A DNA stretch of 64,000 bases, taken from an uncultured Microcaldota archaeon (GTDB lineage: Archaea > Micrarchaeota > Micrarchaeia > Burarchaeales > Fermentimicrarchaeaceae). A program made the translations under genes and the position numbers. Of the stretch, positions 13,963 to 58,684 are shown one piece after another (within the stretch, counting starts at the first letter, position 1; each line of letters starts with the position of its first letter). The notes beneath the pieces are model-generated. The model was not told the origin of the DNA and did not search any database. It saw only the letters and a list, made by a program, of their open reading frames with translations. The stretch spans positions 62,001 to 126,000 of the forward strand of contig CAISET010000002.1 in the NCBI GenBank assembly GCA_903884505.1, read 5' to 3'.

Positions 13963-15777
13963 TCACGCCGCCAGTCCCTTCCGCCTAATCGCGAGCATTA
14001 GCGCAGCAGCGCCCCCTAAAGGCAGCAGCACGAACCCTGAGCAGCAGTTGGGGGAAGGAGGAGTGGTGGTGCAGTCGCCCTCCACCCACACCCAGTCCGC
14101 GCCTGAAGAGCTCCCATCGCTTGAGCCAGCCGAGGTTCCAGAAAGGCATCTCCCTTGCGCATCGCTCCACCCGCACCCCGAATACTGCGTGCAGCCGCCG
14201 CAGGAAAAGGAGTGCGTTCCACAGTTCGCCGGAGCGGGCGTTGGGGTCGGAGATGCGCCAGCGCAATTCGATTGGACCCACGCCCAGTCGCTTCCTGACG
14301 AGTTTCCATCAGTTGAGCCGTTCGAACTCCCAGCGAGACAGGTTCCTCTTGACTTGCTCCACCCGCACCCGGAGTAAGCTGTGCAGTTCGCGCAGGAGAT
14401 TAAATGGGTGCTGCAGCCCGAAGGCGCAGGCGTCGGCTCCGGGTTGGGGAAGTACGGGGAGCCAAGGCGCCCGATGTATGCAGTGAAATCCGTCTCGTTG
14501 CCCATCATGCCCCTCCCAGGATTCATTATCTCCTCCGGGTCCGCGCCCCCGGAGGCGTTGCTCATGCAGCCAAGCACTACATCGTTGAACTCCTGGCGAG
14601 GCAGAGCATCACCGCCATGGGCCGCAAGGCATGCATATGCAACGCGCAGTGCGCCCGGCCCGTGGTCGTCCACATAGGTCCTTATCACCAGTTGTGAGTA
14701 GGCATAGCCGAAGTCCTGCCATTCATCGAAGGACGCGTTTGTCGGGTCCCACTGCTCCATGAGGGAGTAGTTGTTCCTGTAGTAGTAAATCAGGTCCGAG
14801 ATGCGCACCTTGTCACTGGAGCGGTTGGAGAAGAGGTGCCCCTCGTAATCTGTTCCCGTTTCCAGAAAGGCCAGATGCTCCATGTATTTGGCGGTGCCCT
14901 CGTCAAACCAGTTGTCGCCGCCTTTCACCTGCGGAATCTGCGAGTTGAACGCGTGCGTCGTTTCATGGACAGCCGCCTCCTCCACCCCGTAGGAAGTGGT
15001 GGCATTCGGCCTGAGAAGCACGACGCCGGGAGAGTGGTATTCACCCGATGCCCACGATCGTATCTCCGTGCTCTGGTTGGGGAGGATTACGTACGCCACG
15101 TGCGCGAACGGAAACGGCAGGCCAAGCTCGCTTTCGATGCGTGGGATGAAAGCGGTTGCGTTCGCTATCTCCCCGGAAAAGTTCTCCTGCGAGTTGTGCA
15201 GCAGCAGGTAGTTCTCGCCGATGCGGCTCAGCGTGTAGCCCCCATCCGTCTCCCTGATGTAAGTGAGCTTGATGCACCCGGGCAGGAAGAGCCCGACTGA
15301 AGGCGGGGAGCCTTCGAAATCTGCATGCGGCTCGCTTGAGAGGAACTCGCTTCCCGCTGGCAGCGTTATGCGCGAGGTTATGTTCGCGGCGAAGGGGCAT
15401 GCCGTCGCCTGCACCAGCCGTCCGTAGGCCTTTATGTCCGGAGGCGTGTCGTAGCTCAGCCTCAGTGCATATTCCGACACCGCCCCATCGAAATCGGCGC
15501 GGAGGCGCAGAAGGGAAAAGTCATCGCTGTAGGGCGTTATGCCATCGTCCGTGATGGTGCCCCTGTCGCCATGCCAGTTCACATTGTACGCCCTTTTAGG
15601 TATGTAGTATGACAGCGTCATCGACGAAACCGGCTCCGGGGAGACATAGCCCACATCATAGATGTGCGAGATTGTCCCGTCTTCCGCAAGCGTTCCCGAA
15701 TAGCTCTGTGATGATACCGAAACCGTAACGGCCTGCACGGCAAGCGGCAGCAGGAGCAGCAGTGCGAAGAGCCTCAT
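13963..15777 (-). CDS. Exported gluzincin-like metalloprotease with PSI-like repeats and C-terminal anchor
   Basis: From the ATG at 15777 the 604-residue protein begins with a signal peptide (MRLFALLLLLPLAVQA). The middle has HETTH near residue 270 followed 18 residues later by a glutamate in NWFDEG, the zinc ligand pattern of M1-like gluzincins. Residues about 455-570 hold two near-identical Cys-rich units (ISCANCTAYSGCGW and FSCGGCTQYSGCGW) that resemble PSI domains, each followed by a Pro/Thr linker. The end is NCCSGFVLLPLGGAAALML plus AIRRKGLAA, matching the shared C-terminal tail of this window. It should be a surface-anchored peptidase. Confidence 0.85.
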   Translation of the reverse strand: MRLFALLLLLPLAVQAVTVSVSSQSYSGTLAEDGTISHIYDVGYVSPEPVSSMTLSYYIPKRAYNVNWHGDRGTITDDGITPYSDDFSLLRLRADFDGAVSEYALRLSYDTPPDIKAYGRLVQATACPFAANITSRITLPAGSEFLSSEPHADFEGSPPSVGLFLPGCIKLTYIRETDGGYTLSRIGENYLLLHNSQENFSGEIANATAFIPRIESELGLPFPFAHVAYVILPNQSTEIRSWASGEYHSPGVVLLRPNATTSYGVEEAAVHETTHAFNSQIPQVKGGDNWFDEGTAKYMEHLAFLETGTDYEGHLFSNRSSDKVRISDLIYYYRNNYSLMEQWDPTNASFDEWQDFGYAYSQLVIRTYVDDHGPGALRVAYACLAAHGGDALPRQEFNDVVLGCMSNASGGADPEEIMNPGRGMMGNETDFTAYIGRLGSPYFPNPEPTPAPSGCSTHLISCANCTAYSGCGWSKSRGTCLAGSSNGSTDGNSSGSDWAWVQSNCAGASPTPTPAPANCGTHSFSCGGCTQYSGCGWSDAQGRCLSGTSAGSSDGSSSGADWVWVEGDCTTTPPSPNCCSGFVLLPLGGAAALMLAIRRKGLAA

Positions 15778-15820
15778 GGTTGAAGTGAGAGCGTAGGGGG
15801 TAAATAACCCTGCTGCCAGT

Positions 15821-15994
15821 GGAGATTCAGGAACCAAGGATGTTGCCGAGGCGAGCGAGGCAATGTTGCCGAGCAACGCGAGGCAACAGGCGGTTGCCGG
15901 AGGCAACCGGACAGGCAGTCGCCGTAGGCGACTGGATATGACGGGGAGCGATAGCGACAATGCCAACCATTGGTTCTGACTGGAAACCACGTCC
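15821..15994 (+). repeat. Dispersed hairpin element, copy B
   Basis: It begins GGAGATTCAGGAACCAAGGA, contains internal hairpins (for example GTTGCC-GGA-GGCAAC and GTCGCC-GTA-GGCGAC), and ends CCAACCATTGGTTCTGAC with the tail TGGAAACCACGTCC. The ends pair as AACCAA with TTGGTT. A TATA-like TTTATAAAC follows eight bases later, before the gene at 16044. It fills most of the 266-base gap 15778-16043. Confidence 0.75.
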
Positions 15995-16043
15995 CTGGCC
16001 TGGTTTATAAACGCGGGAAATGACATGCTAGCGGCGACCGAAT

Positions 16044-16325
16044 ATGCCGATTGAAGAAGAGATTATACATTGGTGGCGGGACGAGGCTGGTGAGCTTCAC
16101 CGGAACGCGCTACGCCTTGAGAGCGAGCAGCCCCAGAGGGTGAACGGCTTCCCCCGGGACGGGGTCGTGACGCTCAGGCTCATGAATACCGTGAGCCAGC
16201 AGGCGATCAGGCTCTCCCCTGAGGAAGCGCTGAAGGTGAGCACCCAGCTTCTTTCCGTTGCGAAGGAGATAATGAACCAGAAGCGGGTCCTCTGGAACGA
16301 GCAGGAGGAACAGGCGCGAGTCTAG
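16044..16325 (+). CDS. Small orphan protein
   Basis: A 93-residue, mostly polar protein that I do not recognise. It has an acidic N-terminus with two tryptophans (EEIIHWWRDEAGE), a short strand-rich middle and a helical C-terminal half (SPEEALKVSTQLLSVAKEIM). It may be a small helical DNA- or protein-binding factor, but nothing proves it. A TTTATAAAC box lies about 35 bases upstream, just behind hairpin element B. It is convergent with the next gene; the two coding regions abut without a spacer. Confidence 0.65.
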   Translation: MPIEEEIIHWWRDEAGELHRNALRLESEQPQRVNGFPRDGVVTLRLMNTVSQQAIRLSPEEALKVSTQLLSVAKEIMNQKRVLWNEQEEQARV

Positions 16326-16613
16326 TTACTTCAGGAGGTGGGCGAAGTCCTTCGAGGTCTTCCCCTTTGGGAAAATATTCCCGTTCTTGGCGGTTACCGG
16401 GAGGCCGTATTCCTCTGCGACGCGGATCAGCTCGCTAAGGTCAACAAATTTGTCTATGAATAGGTAGGGGTATTCGCCTGCCGGGCTAATCCCCTTCTTA
16501 ACGATGAAATCCTGGCGCTGGAATACGCCTGCGCGCTTCACCCTTATCTCGGCCTTCCCCTTCGCGAGAATCTCCGCAACGGAGGGCCTTGGCGGCGGTG
16601 CTTCTTCTTCCAT
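16326..16613 (-). CDS. Small orphan protein
   Basis: A 95-residue protein, not recognised. The N-terminus is acidic and proline-rich (MEEEAPPPRPSV), followed by a basic strand-rich section and a helical section ending in a Lys-rich tail. No membrane or export signal is present. It lies just downstream of two exported-protein genes on the same strand with a spacing of nine bases, so it may be the last gene of that transcript. Confidence 0.6.
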   Translation of the reverse strand: MEEEAPPPRPSVAEILAKGKAEIRVKRAGVFQRQDFIVKKGISPAGEYPYLFIDKFVDLSELIRVAEEYGLPVTAKNGNIFPKGKTSKDFAHLLK

Positions 16614-16622
16614 TTTAATCCC

Positions 16623-17183
16623 TCACGAGCGCCTTGCGAGCAGCGTGATTCCGGCGCCAGCCAAAAGGACCAGGCCCGTGCCGGGGCACCCTCCCGGCCC
16701 CGGCTCAACGGGCGTAGGCGTGGGCGTAGGCTGCGAGGAGTAGCAGTTCGTGTAGGCCGAGTCACAGGCGTTCGTGCATGCGCCGTAGCTCGCGTCGGTT
16801 CCGAAATCCGTGTTTGCGCACTGGATTTGGCCTGCGGCTATGAAGGGATTGCCTGCCGCAGCGGAGCAGCACCCGACTACGCATGCTTCCCAGGACGGGT
16901 AGCACGCGTCGGGGGTGTAATTAACTGCAGCGGATGCGCAGCTCTGCCAATTGACACCGCAGTTCCTATTGCAGGCAGCTAGTGCAGTTCTGTGCGAGTC
17001 GGGAATGCTGGCGCACCGGCCGCCGCCATTCGGCGCATTGCTGTATGCGCCCCCGGCAGAGCTGCAACAGCCTGCGGCGCATGTGTTGAGCCCGGCATTG
17101 CAAGCCGATAGGCCATCGGCCTGGGCATATGCGAGGCAAGCCAAAAGTGAAAACGCCAGGATGATGGCGATTAGTAGTTTCAT
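16623..17183 (-). CDS. Exported Cys-rich protein with C-terminal anchor tail
   Basis: From the ATG at 17183 the protein has 186 residues: a signal peptide (MKLLIAIILAFSLLACLAYA), about 130 residues with some 18 cysteines in repeated patterns (CAAGCCSSA and CVVGCCSAA suggest an internal duplication), a PTPTPTP linker, then the tail GGCPGTGLVLLAGAG with ITLLARRS. The tail matches the other anchored proteins here. It is likely a disulfide-rich surface protein. It lies five bases behind the next similar gene on the same strand, so the two form an operon. Confidence 0.8.
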   Translation of the reverse strand: MKLLIAIILAFSLLACLAYAQADGLSACNAGLNTCAAGCCSSAGGAYSNAPNGGGRCASIPDSHRTALAACNRNCGVNWQSCASAAVNYTPDACYPSWEACVVGCCSAAAGNPFIAAGQIQCANTDFGTDASYGACTNACDSAYTNCYSSQPTPTPTPVEPGPGGCPGTGLVLLAGAGITLLARRS

Positions 17184-17187
17184 GCGC

Positions 17188-17529
17188 TCACGAGTGCCTT
17201 GCGAGCAGTATGCCTGCTGCGCCCAATAGAAGCACGAACCCTGAGCCGCAGCAGCCCCCACCGGGCGTAACACCGGTGCCTGGAGAACTCCCGGAAACTT
17301 GCTGCGTGCAGGAGAGGTATGGCGCCTGGCAGTTCGCGTCTATCAGGCTATCCCACTGCGTTTCCTGCGCAGACGAACAGAAGCATTGCGTCCCTGACAG
17401 GCTGCAGCCGGCCTGGGTGCACATGTTGGATACACACTGCGCCAGCTGGTTATCGCAGTCCTGCGCGGTCAGGGCGGACGCGAAAGATGTCATGAGGCAG
17501 GCGGCTAACAGCACAAGGAGCATTTTCAT
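17188..17529 (-). CDS. Small exported Cys-rich protein with C-terminal anchor tail
   Basis: The 113-residue protein has a signal peptide (MKMLLVLLAACLMTSFASA), a 65-residue domain with eight cysteines (CDNQLAQCVSNMC and CFC), a Ser/Gly/Thr linker and the tail GGGCCGSGFVLLLGAAGILL plus ARHS. The mature domain is short enough to be a single disulfide-bonded module. It is the first gene of a two- or three-gene operon with the similar protein at 16623-17183. A TATA-like CTTAAATAG lies about 30 bases upstream on the minus strand. Confidence 0.8.
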   Translation of the reverse strand: MKMLLVLLAACLMTSFASALTAQDCDNQLAQCVSNMCTQAGCSLSGTQCFCSSAQETQWDSLIDANCQAPYLSCTQQVSGSSPGTGVTPGGGCCGSGFVLLLGAAGILLARHS

Positions 17530-33666: not shown

Positions 33667-34308
33667 CTAGGCGTGCCTCGCGATTAGCAGGGGGAGCGGA
33701 AGGAGGAGAAGGATAAAGCCGGGGAGGCATGCCTGCACTTTTTCGTCATCGGTTTTTTCAGGGATTTCCAGACCGTAGGGCGGCATGGTCGCATTAAGGT
33801 TCGCGCCTGCCGGGCCGCACCTCACGCAGTTTCCGTCCGGGAAGCAATTGTTCTGGATTGCGGTCCAGTTGCCGTCCTTCCAGTAGGCGTAGGAGTTGGT
33901 GTTGTTGGCGAGAAGGCCGGCTATTTGCGAAACGTCTTCAGGAGTGGTACCGTTTATCACTTTGTGGCTCCAGAGCCAGTCGAGCTCGGTCCATGCTGCC
34001 TCGCTCCAGTTGGCATCATGCGGCTGCCCCATCGCCGAGGCGTTCGGCAGGCCGATTCTCAAGGCCCAGCCGTATTCGTCCTCGCCGAGGGATGCAAGGA
34101 GAGTCTCGTTGTAGTGGCTGCGGAAGAAGAGGGTGCCGTTCTGGAGGGTGTAGTTGCTTCCGAGAGTCGCGTTGCTTTCCGTGATTGCGGAGAGGTTCAC
34201 CGTGACGTTGGGCTTGTTGAGGTAGACAACGCCTCCGCCGTAGACGATGCACGCGGAAATTGAACCTGCGGAAAACAACAGCGCAAGAAGGATGATTATG
34301 CCCCTCAA
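33667..34308 (-). CDS. Exported protein with C-terminal anchor tail
   Basis: The 213-residue protein has a signal peptide (MRGIIILLALLFSAGSISAC) whose last cysteine might be a lipid site, a soluble part rich in Asn-x-Ser/Thr sites, a few cysteines near the end (NNCFPDGNCVRCGPAG), and the tail QACLPGFILLLLPLPLLIARHA with the shared Cys-Gly-hydrophobic-Arg pattern. It is convergent with the giant orphan gene, with one base between stops. It is probably a glycosylated surface protein. A promoter-like AT-rich stretch lies near 34340, shared with the tRNA behind it on the other strand. Confidence 0.8.
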   Translation of the reverse strand: MRGIIILLALLFSAGSISACIVYGGGVVYLNKPNVTVNLSAITESNATLGSNYTLQNGTLFFRSHYNETLLASLGEDEYGWALRIGLPNASAMGQPHDANWSEAAWTELDWLWSHKVINGTTPEDVSQIAGLLANNTNSYAYWKDGNWTAIQNNCFPDGNCVRCGPAGANLNATMPPYGLEIPEKTDDEKVQACLPGFILLLLPLPLLIARHA

Positions 34309-43641: not shown

Positions 43642-45840
43642 TTACTGCGCGCGGAAGGCGTGCATGTATCCGTTGTCATACACGCGGTCGTAGGGAACTG
43701 CGCGCGGGGCATTGTAGAAGTCGTGCAGCAGGAAGATGTTGATGCCGTATGGCTGGACCACAGTGGCATTTGCGTTCCAGGCGAAATTGCTCTCCGCTTC
43801 CCACTTCTGCTGGTCCGCATATTCGACGTACAGGTCCGCGAGCACGGGCCGCCCTCCCTTCCATGCCTCGAGATGGCCGTAGAGCGGGTCAAGCGCGACC
43901 TTCGAGCTGGCCGGGGTGTAAAATGAGAGGTATCTCATCGGTGAAGTGCACACATCATCGGCTAGGCCCCATGAGCAGTGGTAGCTCATGCCTGAGAGGA
44001 CGATTGCGCCGAAGAGGAAGTTCGGGGCGATGAACAGGGCGAGGAGCAAGGGGAAGGCAAGCTTTTCTTTCAGTTCCTTTGCGAAGACGAGCGGGAAAAG
44101 GCCTGCGCCGACCATCGCGACTATCAGGTCAGTGCGCAAAGAGACGTATGTGTTGAAGAGAAGGAGGGCTAGGAGGAGAAGGGAAGGGATGCGGTAGCGG
44201 TTTGCAATTATTCCGTAGATTGCGCAGCCTGCGAGGAGCGGGAGCAGGAACTGGAAGTCGAACCGCATCCCGTCCAGCCCATAGCTAAGGAGGTAGCCCC
44301 ATGTGCCCGGGACTATTTCGTATGGGAGCCCGGCACGCAGGAAAATCGGGATGTAAAAGGGAAGCGAGATGAGGACTGCTGAAACCGGCCAGAGAATTGT
44401 GCGCTTGAGGTCGAACTTGAACCCATTCGTTGCGTAGAAGTAGAAGGGGAAGAAGACGAGGGTAAGCGGGTGGGCTGCGAAGGCGAGCCCAAGTGCGGCG
44501 ACGCTTGCGAGCGGGGATGAGAGCATGAGGATGAGCGCGATGTTTAGGAGTGTGAAGGCGAAGATGTGCAGCCCTATCCCCGTTGCAGTGAGGAGAAACG
44601 CCCACTGGGAGATGAACATCAGGGAGGCGAGCACCCGCGATTTCGGCTCCAGCTTCCCGAAGAGGAGATAGGTTGTTGCCGCGAAGGCGAAAGCGGATAG
44701 GATGTTCAGGGGAATGCGGACTGGCTCGAATGAATTCTGGGCGAGGATGCTGGTAAGCTGGGCAGCGAACTCGAAGAAGACGGGCGGGTAGGTAAAGGGC
44801 CTGCCCAGGTAGCTTAGGCTATCGAAATAGTTAGTCGTTCCGCGCTCGAATGTCTCCTGCACCTGCCTGAAATAGTACGCACCCCAGACGTCGTAGCTTG
44901 AGATGAGCAGGCTGTAGGCGAGGATTATTGCTGCGAAGGCGAAGCCGAAGACTGCGGCCTCTTTGAGGATTCCTGGAACTCCTGCCAGCCTTTTCTCGGG
45001 CTTGCGGAACTTGAGGAGGTAGGCGAAACATGCGAGCAGGAGGAGCGGCACCAGCCAATCGATTCCGTAAGGCGCGAGCCGGAATACCGCTACGAGCGAT
45101 GCGACCAGGATGACGGCTGGAACGAGAGCTCGCTTCAGTTCATCGCCCTTGAAAACGAATGCGAATGCGAGCGACAGGATGCCTGCGAACAGTGCTGTGA
45201 GCGGATAAATGGTTTGCGATTCGACCTCGTTTGAGAAGAGGATATGGCCAAGGAACCTCACTTCGACCAAATGCTTCCCTGGCTGGATGGGAAGCTTCTC
45301 CGAGATGCTGAACGTGCCGTTGAAGGAATAGAGCGGTGCTGAGGCGCGCACGCCATCAATGAGAATCTCCAGCGGCTTGTAGCCATTAGTCCTCGCGTTG
45401 CCGCTTACCGTGATGAAAAGAGACTTGTTCTCCATATTGGTTTGGACTGAGGCATTAACTGTTTCGGGCTGGATTGACGCGGCCTCGTTGAAGGAGAATG
45501 AAACTGTTTTGCTACTGCAGGAAAGCGTGGCGTTGCGGCCGCAGGCCGCGGAATCGAACGGGATTTGGTTTTCGCCTTCCTGAATTTGGAGTTGCGTTGC
45601 ATTGCAGAGCGTGCATGAGGAGGCGAAGTTCGAGAAGACGGTGAAGGAGGAGTTGCTTGCTACTTCCTTTGGGTAGGAGGTAAGGTAAAGCTCCTGCGAT
45701 TTGGGCAGCGGAAGGCCGTTGAACCCTATCTCGTTCATCTTCTGCACGTGGAAGAATAGGTAGATGATGAATGCCGTAACTAGCAGGATGACGAACCAGT
45801 TCTGCCTGAACTTTCCGCTCCAGTCAGCTTTTTTCTTCAT
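43642..45840 (-). CDS. GT-C-type polytopic glycosyltransferase-like protein
   Basis: The 732-residue protein has one N-terminal membrane helix, an exterior beta-rich domain of about 180 residues with a CTLC motif, then about 11 membrane helices. The first loop of the hydrophobic core (SSYDVWGAYYFRQVQETF and GRPFTYPPVFFEFAA) resembles GT-C enzymes such as GT39/GT87, which use lipid-linked sugars. A second exterior domain forms the C-terminus. The gene overlaps truD by 17 bases. It could glycosylate the Asn/Ser/Thr-rich exported proteins encoded here. Confidence 0.78.
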   Translation of the reverse strand: MKKKADWSGKFRQNWFVILLVTAFIIYLFFHVQKMNEIGFNGLPLPKSQELYLTSYPKEVASNSSFTVFSNFASSCTLCNATQLQIQEGENQIPFDSAACGRNATLSCSSKTVSFSFNEAASIQPETVNASVQTNMENKSLFITVSGNARTNGYKPLEILIDGVRASAPLYSFNGTFSISEKLPIQPGKHLVEVRFLGHILFSNEVESQTIYPLTALFAGILSLAFAFVFKGDELKRALVPAVILVASLVAVFRLAPYGIDWLVPLLLLACFAYLLKFRKPEKRLAGVPGILKEAAVFGFAFAAIILAYSLLISSYDVWGAYYFRQVQETFERGTTNYFDSLSYLGRPFTYPPVFFEFAAQLTSILAQNSFEPVRIPLNILSAFAFAATTYLLFGKLEPKSRVLASLMFISQWAFLLTATGIGLHIFAFTLLNIALILMLSSPLASVAALGLAFAAHPLTLVFFPFYFYATNGFKFDLKRTILWPVSAVLISLPFYIPIFLRAGLPYEIVPGTWGYLLSYGLDGMRFDFQFLLPLLAGCAIYGIIANRYRIPSLLLLALLLFNTYVSLRTDLIVAMVGAGLFPLVFAKELKEKLAFPLLLALFIAPNFLFGAIVLSGMSYHCSWGLADDVCTSPMRYLSFYTPASSKVALDPLYGHLEAWKGGRPVLADLYVEYADQQKWEAESNFAWNANATVVQPYGINIFLLHDFYNAPRAVPYDRVYDNGYMHAFRAQ

Positions 45841-57580: not shown

Positions 57581-58684
57581 ATGGGGGGCTTTGGTGAAGG
57601 GTTGCGCAGGGCTGCAAGCTGGGATCGGGGCTTCCCAGTAGCCCTGCTCGCCCTCCTGCTGTTTTCGCAGTTCGCGTATGCCGGGTGGAGCGACCTGGTG
57701 TTCTCTTCGCAGGAGAACTACTGGGATTTCCACCAGGGGAGGCCTGTTTCCCTGAGCGTGAATGTGAGCAACAACGGGGATACGAGCGGCTATGCGGTCT
57801 ACATAACGAACGTGACGCTCCATCCCCCCGACTGCGTGAATGGCGGGATGCCGATTACCTCCTCTGGCATAATCCTCTGCCCGAACCAGGATGACACCGG
57901 ATGCAGGAACAGGTTCAGGAATGCGGGTGCAACCGCAATATTCAACTTCACAAACATTACCACTGATGCCTCGTGCATAAACGGGCTGCGCACCTACAAC
58001 TTCACGTTCGAGGGGAGCGACGAGCTCCTCGGGGTCGGAAGCAGCTGGTACAACAGGACGCCGGCGAGCACGGCCAACTATTACATGCGTTTCATCGGCG
58101 CGGACAGCTGCGGGGACGGGGTTTGCGCGCCCACCGAGAACTGCACGCTCTGCGAGGCCGACTGCGGAAGGTGCCCGGAATGTTCCGGAAGCACCCGAAC
58201 CTGCTACAACCATTCCGTGATGGAATGCAGCAATGGATTCTACACGAGGCTGATTGAGGCGTGCGCATATGGCTGCGAAATAGTGAATGGCACTCCGGCA
58301 TGCAGGCATATTTGCAGTGAAGGCGAGAGGCATTGCGCGGATGATGCGAGAACGCTGCAGACCTGCAGGAATAATGCCTGGGCGAATGAAACCTGCCCCC
58401 GCGGATGCGTGGACAACGCCTGCGAGACGGACCTCTGCACCGGAATCGCGTGCCCTGACAAGTGCGAAGCCGGCAGGGCCTATTCCTACGGCTCCTGCAA
58501 CCCGTCTACGGGCAACTGCACGTATTACGGCACGGTAGCGTGCCAATACGCGTGCAGCGGGACGGTATGCGCCACCTCTCCGCCCACAACGCCTACGCCG
58601 GCCCCTTCGCCCGGAGGGATTCCCTGCTGCAGCCTCGGCCTGCTTCTGCTTTCCGGCCTTGCGTTCGCCGCGTTCAGGAGATGA
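57581..58684 (+). CDS. Exported Cys-rich protein with C-terminal anchor tail
   Basis: From the ATG at 57581 the 367-residue protein has a signal anchor (VALLALLLFSQFAYA), a beta-rich first domain (about residues 45-170) with some cysteines, then about 180 residues with some 28 cysteines in EGF-like spacing (CGDGVCAPTENCTLCEADCG), a PTPTPAPSPGG linker and the tail IPCCSLGLLLLSGLAFAAFRR. It is a surface protein of the same tail class as four others here. The DsbA-like enzyme at 7123 is a likely folding helper. Confidence 0.82.
   Translation: MGGFGEGLRRAASWDRGFPVALLALLLFSQFAYAGWSDLVFSSQENYWDFHQGRPVSLSVNVSNNGDTSGYAVYITNVTLHPPDCVNGGMPITSSGIILCPNQDDTGCRNRFRNAGATAIFNFTNITTDASCINGLRTYNFTFEGSDELLGVGSSWYNRTPASTANYYMRFIGADSCGDGVCAPTENCTLCEADCGRCPECSGSTRTCYNHSVMECSNGFYTRLIEACAYGCEIVNGTPACRHICSEGERHCADDARTLQTCRNNAWANETCPRGCVDNACETDLCTGIACPDKCEAGRAYSYGSCNPSTGNCTYYGTVACQYACSGTVCATSPPTTPTPAPSPGGIPCCSLGLLLLSGLAFAAFRR

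Follow-up and report, generated by a model that had tools for sequence, protein, structure and literature searches.

Within the window, the 64,000-nucleotide stretch of DNA analysed here, five genes encode secreted proteins that end in a Cys-centred tail. Three of them are clustered on the minus strand at 13963–17529. The gene at 13963–15777 encodes a metallopeptidase-like protein of 604 residues, with a signal peptide, the motif VHETTHAF and a PSI repeat (PF01437, E 2.4e-5); its true start lies near 15777 and not at 16026. The protein ends in SPNCCSGFVLLPLGGAAALMLAIRRKGLAA, and its Cys tail, CCSGFVLLPLGGAAALMLAIRRKGLAA plus the stop codon, occupies 13963–14046 and was matched at E 8e-10 in the phylum-wide profile search. 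The zinc-peptidase-like motif together with a plexin PSI repeat would seem an uncommon combination in a surface protein of an archaeon. The neighbouring gene at 16623–17183 encodes a Cys-rich secreted protein of 186 residues with a signal peptide, for which no family was matched; it ends in GGCPGTGLVLLAGAGITLLARRS, with the Cys tail CPGTGLVLLAGAGITLLARRS plus stop at 16623–16688 (16.2 bits against MYXO-CTERM, short of the cutoff of 20). Directly upstream, at 17188–17529, lies the gene of a small Cys-rich secreted protein (113 residues, signal peptide) ending in GGGCCGSGFVLLLGAAGILLARHS, whose Cys tail, CCGSGFVLLLGAAGILLARHS plus stop, was assigned by the tail profile to 17188–17253. The two latter genes are separated by a gap of 4 bases and may be co-transcribed. 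Further along the minus strand, at 33667–34308, is a gene for a secreted protein of 213 residues that ends in VQACLPGFILLLLPLPLLIARHA; its Cys tail, CLPGFILLLLPLPLLIARHA plus stop (33667–33729), is supported by the tail profile and by comparison with an orthologue. The fifth gene, at 57581–58684 on the plus strand (C2:119437 in the whole genome), encodes a secreted Cys-rich protein of 367 residues with a signal peptide, ending in GIPCCSLGLLLLSGLAFAAFRR, and the same two lines of evidence place its Cys tail, CCSLGLLLLSGLAFAAFRR plus stop, at 58625–58684. After the start correction, a signal peptide is present in 5/5 of these proteins. The five tails claimed in the earlier note thus lie in frame, at the extreme C-termini of ORFs with signal peptides; the end residues listed there do not hold for the 13963 protein, which really ends in IRRKGLAA. 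A 732-residue ORF elsewhere in the window (43642–45840, minus strand) had no match in a Pfam search at E 0.001.

The own genome (G000; 1,508,669 bp in 37 contigs, 56% G+C) was searched whole, the profiles being run against the C-terminal 60 residues of the 12,068 ORFs in its 1.51 Mb that are at least 60 residues long. A profile built from the five window tails alone retrieved eight further proteins below E = 1, six of them below 0.02. All eight carry a Cys tail at the C-terminal end, and there was no unrelated match; thus the sharing of the tail among the five proteins is not a matter of chance. With a 19-tail profile, most seed tails of which were chosen by pattern, 23 proteins were found at E < 0.1, including four non-seed proteins, and a score gap followed beyond them. 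The reversed profile and five column-shuffled profiles gave no match at E < 0.01 among the C-termini of G000. A census of proteins that combine a signal peptide with a C-terminal helix, in which the signal peptide was thus itself a selection criterion, yielded three extra members (C2:263610, C10:2499 and C27:52105), bringing the family to about 26 in G000. Of the members found by profile, 22 have a complete N-terminus, and each of these 22 has a signal peptide, judged by eye; C36:2, whose N-terminus is cut by a contig end, was left out of this count. The profile search proposed in the earlier note therefore brought in more members, and the scattered matches without signal peptides that the note had envisaged as the opposite outcome did not occur. 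The protein bodies are diverse, comprising metallopeptidase-like, Ig-like, carboxypeptidase-regulatory-like, FecR-like, PSI and Cys-rich types. The shared tail in the window is real, and its family is larger than first noted.

Analysis of the 26 tails revealed a common layout, in which a Pro/Thr/Gly-rich linker leads to a Cys at the membrane edge (often as C-P-x-G-F or C-C-x-G-F); a short helix of weak hydrophobicity follows, and the tail closes with a few basic residues. The residue following the Cys is Pro in 9 tails, Cys in 7 and Gly in 4; Gly occurs at +2 or +3, Phe at +4 in 14/26 and Leu at +6 in 20/26. From the Cys to the protein end there are 18–29 residues (median 20), and a stretch rich in Pro, Thr, Ser, Ala and Gly precedes the tail in 18/26. 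We compared these tails with 13 hand-picked ordinary C-terminal anchors, also from G000. The median hydropathy of the helix is 2.02 in the Cys tails versus 2.59 in the ordinary anchors (p = 8e-6), and 3 versus 10 residues extend beyond the helix (p = 3e-5); a Cys near the helix start is found in 2/13 ordinary anchors.

The nearest named record is that of a sister genome, Candidatus Iainarchaeum sp. STA_44 (G002, of a sister genus), from which the phylum name used here, Candidatus Iainarchaeota, is taken. The 767 kb of it that were read, about three quarters of the genome, contain at least 10 Cys tails, and another sister genome, G003, contains 6–7, so that the tails are present in sister genomes, where the earlier note had suggested looking for them. 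The Cys is kept in 6/6 orthologue pairs of G000 and G002, the aligned bodies of which are 37–69% identical, and the remainder of the tail diverges. Among these pairs, the orthologue of the 33667 protein is 69% identical with the Cys kept, and that of the 57581 protein is 49% identical and has a Cys tail. A second G002 homologue of the latter (C20:13211–14611) has an ordinary transmembrane segment with a long basic, Lys-rich end in place of the Cys tail. As homologous bodies occur with either anchor, the Cys tail and the ordinary transmembrane segment look like interchangeable modules.

Such exchange would suit the view that the tails are plain transmembrane anchors retained on the mature proteins, the Cys being structural or S-acylated and no cleavage taking place, given that anchoring alone may suffice. 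The many tail-bearing genomes without a clear candidate protease of the MrtA type and, where tested, without an archaeosortase also fit this view. However, the ordinary anchors of G000 are more hydrophobic, have longer basic ends and seldom (2/13) bear a Cys near the helix start; moreover, the Cys is the sole position kept in all orthologue pairs, and one motif recurs in 26 largely unrelated proteins. We thus consider plain anchoring unlikely. Conservation centres on the Cys, and the tail is distinct from ordinary anchors; it is probably a sorting tag of the CGP-CTERM kind.

The earlier note regarded the system that processes CGP-CTERM tails as unidentified, which is out of date: the CPBP protease MrtA is reportedly the sorting enzyme now predicted for CGP-CTERM. 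G000 encodes two CPBP (PF02517) proteins, CPBP1 (C8:12783–13640) and CPBP2 (C2:214502–215263, outside the window). The best NCBIfam family for CPBP2 is NF040590, archaeomyxosortase MrtA, at 140.1 bits (E 1e-40), and a G002 relative scores 111.3 bits; neither protein reaches the cutoff of 200 bits, and all other families score far lower (MrtS weakly, at 35 bits, for the G000 protein). The gene neighbourhood is partly conserved between G000 and G002, and the MrtA gene is not adjacent to any tail gene. Both MrtA relatives have TEFFFR where CPBP1 has EEIFFR, that is, Thr replaces the first Glu of EExxxR, and both keep the second Glu, the Arg, His153, His188 and Asn192 of the CPBP catalytic set. 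CPBP1 possesses the complete EExxxR/His/HxxxN set. A contig scan with both MrtA sequences returned the sister genome only, and the MrtA profile gave no match among PDB chains; a single-sequence AlphaFold model of the G002 protein was poor (pLDDT 52).

A phylum survey of 301 genomes with a 50-tail profile (E ≤ 0.01) found tail matches in 39 genomes, concentrated in the own order and family f18, together with three marginal matches in f9 and f13, the two largest families. In most of the tail loci whose sequence was inspected, the protein has a signal peptide and finishes with the tail. Families f18, f11 and others (loci L101–L153) have clear Cys tails on signal-peptide proteins, with MrtA not detected. 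A clear MrtA is present in 2/301 genomes, G000 and G002, and 37 genomes with tail matches are without one, including G003, an 88% complete assembly of 140 contigs in which the MrtA search detected none. Within the own family, five g2 genomes have neither a clear MrtA nor tails. Over its eight genomes, tails occur in 2/2 with MrtA and 1/6 without, an association that is not significant. As for a protease tracking the tail, which the earlier note had proposed looking for, MrtA accompanies the tails in G000 and G002, but G003 has tails with no MrtA detected.

The presence of a CPBP protein in general was rejected as a tail marker, being near-universal in the phylum (262/301 genomes). The same ubiquity, extending to every tail-bearing genome examined for CPBP, raises the alternative that CPBP1, with its full catalytic set, or another widely conserved enzyme does the processing, which would explain the tails in genomes without MrtA. 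Yet CPBP proteins are equally common in large, nearly tail-less families, and their presence does not track the tail; we hold this alternative to be highly doubtful.

Another candidate is an archaeosortase/exosortase-family protein (PF09721) with a long C-terminal domain, encoded in G000 at C30:66285–67073 (L264:1444–2964), which matches no specific Art/Xrt family above cutoff. This enzyme, rather than MrtA, might process the tail, since each of the three tail-rich genomes in the own family, including G003 with no MrtA detected, encodes a PF09721 protein, and these proteins form a subtype of their own, separate from the one in the tail-less g2 genomes. The subtype keeps the Cys and Arg, whereas the usual His of the g2 enzymes is replaced by Tyr (G000) or Gln (G002 and G003). 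Presence of the family does not follow the tail: PF09721 proteins were found in all six own-family genomes tested, tail-bearing or not, the tested g2 genomes among them, whereas twelve tail-bearing genomes of other families gave no match above cutoff. Furthermore, the known signals of these enzymes are not Cys-based (PMC11980579). Processing by the archaeosortase therefore appears distinctly unlikely. GlyGly-CTERM sorting by a rhombosortase was rejected, as no rhomboid (PF01694) match was found in G000, G002 or G003.

Our preferred reading, to which we assign a probability slightly below 0.6, is that a variant or diverged sorting system of the CGP-CTERM/MrtA (archaeomyxosortase) type operates in Candidatus Iainarchaeota, with predicted lipidation of the Cys and cleavage of the tail. 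Its support lies in the clean separation of the family, the null controls, the signal peptides, the tail anatomy, the Cys kept in 6/6 pairs and the MrtA relative itself. The joint occurrence of MrtA and tails is observed directly in G000 and G002, as is the anatomy; the g2 genomes, which lack both a clear MrtA and the tails, and the search of the own family that found no rhomboids agree with this reading. So does the parallel of MrtX, a related myxosortase shown to cleave MYXO-CTERM in a Cys-dependent manner (PMC11980579). The reading is weakened by the tails of G003 with no MrtA detected, by tail matches in 39/301 genomes versus a clear MrtA in 2, by the sub-cutoff score, the Glu-to-Thr change at the first position of EExxxR, the archaeosortase that is also encoded and the location of MrtA away from the tail genes, and by an own-family association that rests on eight genomes and is not significant.

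The MrtA reading enables us to propose a putative sorting pathway, in which cleavage and lipidation are modelled on MYXO-CTERM. Initially, the tail protein would be exported by Sec and held temporarily in the membrane by its C-terminal helix. The thiol of the Cys would then receive an archaeal lipid from a transferase. The MrtA-family protease (C2:214502–215263), an intramembrane enzyme of the glutamic type, would cut the chain beyond the Cys, and the cleaved protein would stay outside the cell, anchored by its lipid. This organism can probably lipidate Cys residues of its exported proteins, as a handful of G000 proteins resemble lipoproteins with an N-terminal lipobox; in Haloferax, AliA and AliB lipidate the Cys of exported proteins (PMC12186497). 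It is also conceivable, albeit tentatively, that Cys-tail sorting is old in Iainarchaeota and relies on at least two enzymes: one family would use a diverged MrtA whose catalytic pair has changed, and the other tail-bearing genomes, without a clear MrtA and, where tested, without an archaeosortase, would use another protease.

If the MrtA reading is true, Cys-based, CPBP-processed surface anchoring spreads wider in archaea, into a phylum of small genomes. The tail family would provide an inventory of surface proteins for uncultured cells with poorly known envelopes, and its natural variation (tails lacking CGP, Thr for a catalytic Glu, genomes that have tails without MrtA) would make the pairing of enzyme and substrate, as well as the lipid transferase, testable. 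A literature search on protein sorting in Iainarchaeota/Diapherotrites returned an S-layer review as its sole match.

Among known systems, CGP-CTERM (TIGR04288)/MrtA, described as Thermococcales-only (PMC4870337), shares with the present tails a membrane-edge Cys, a short helix and a basic extreme C-terminus on archaeal secreted proteins. In addition, G000 has an MrtA relative, and the 33667 cargo is weakly homologous to TIGR04292, a CGP-CTERM-anchored Cys-rich protein (35 bits, E 7e-9, cutoff 200). The likeness claimed in the earlier note thus stands for the shared Cys-centred anchor tail on secreted proteins and fails for the motif: Cys-Gly-Pro occurs in 0/26 tails, an absence stronger than the note had reported. 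A TIGR04288 search of G000 gave none at E ≤ 0.001, with control genomes also without a match and the sensitivity hence unproven, and TIGR04288 (21-bit cutoff) was not among the matches listed in an hmmscan of the tails; the MrtA of G000 differs further by its score below the curated cutoff, its Thr for the first catalytic Glu and its phylum. MYXO-CTERM (TIGR03901)/MrtX/MrtC/MrtP resembles the tail in its Cys signature, helix, basic end and CPBP-family protease, and two of ten G000 tails match TIGR03901 at 15.8–16.2 bits (best 16.2, below the cutoff of 20); its hosts, however, are bacteria with an outer membrane and T2SS, and the protease subfamily differs. Synerg-CTERM/MrtS and JDVT-CTERM/MrtJ also combine Cys-containing signals with CPBP proteases, MrtS weakly matching the G000 MrtA relative, but both are bacterial and score far below cutoffs. 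PGF-CTERM/ArtA of Haloferax is likewise an archaeal tripartite C-terminal signal for lipid-anchored surface proteins, and an archaeosortase-family protein is also found in G000, although without a specific Art/Xrt match. To our knowledge, none of the archaeosortase/exosortase signals known so far, PGF-CTERM and PEP-CTERM, is Cys-based. The system known from Thermococcales seems to exist as a variant in a distant archaeal phylum. Judged from its sequence, the tail lies outside CGP-CTERM by the curated model and is probably a variant of the Cys-based C-terminal signals that are paired with CPBP proteases.
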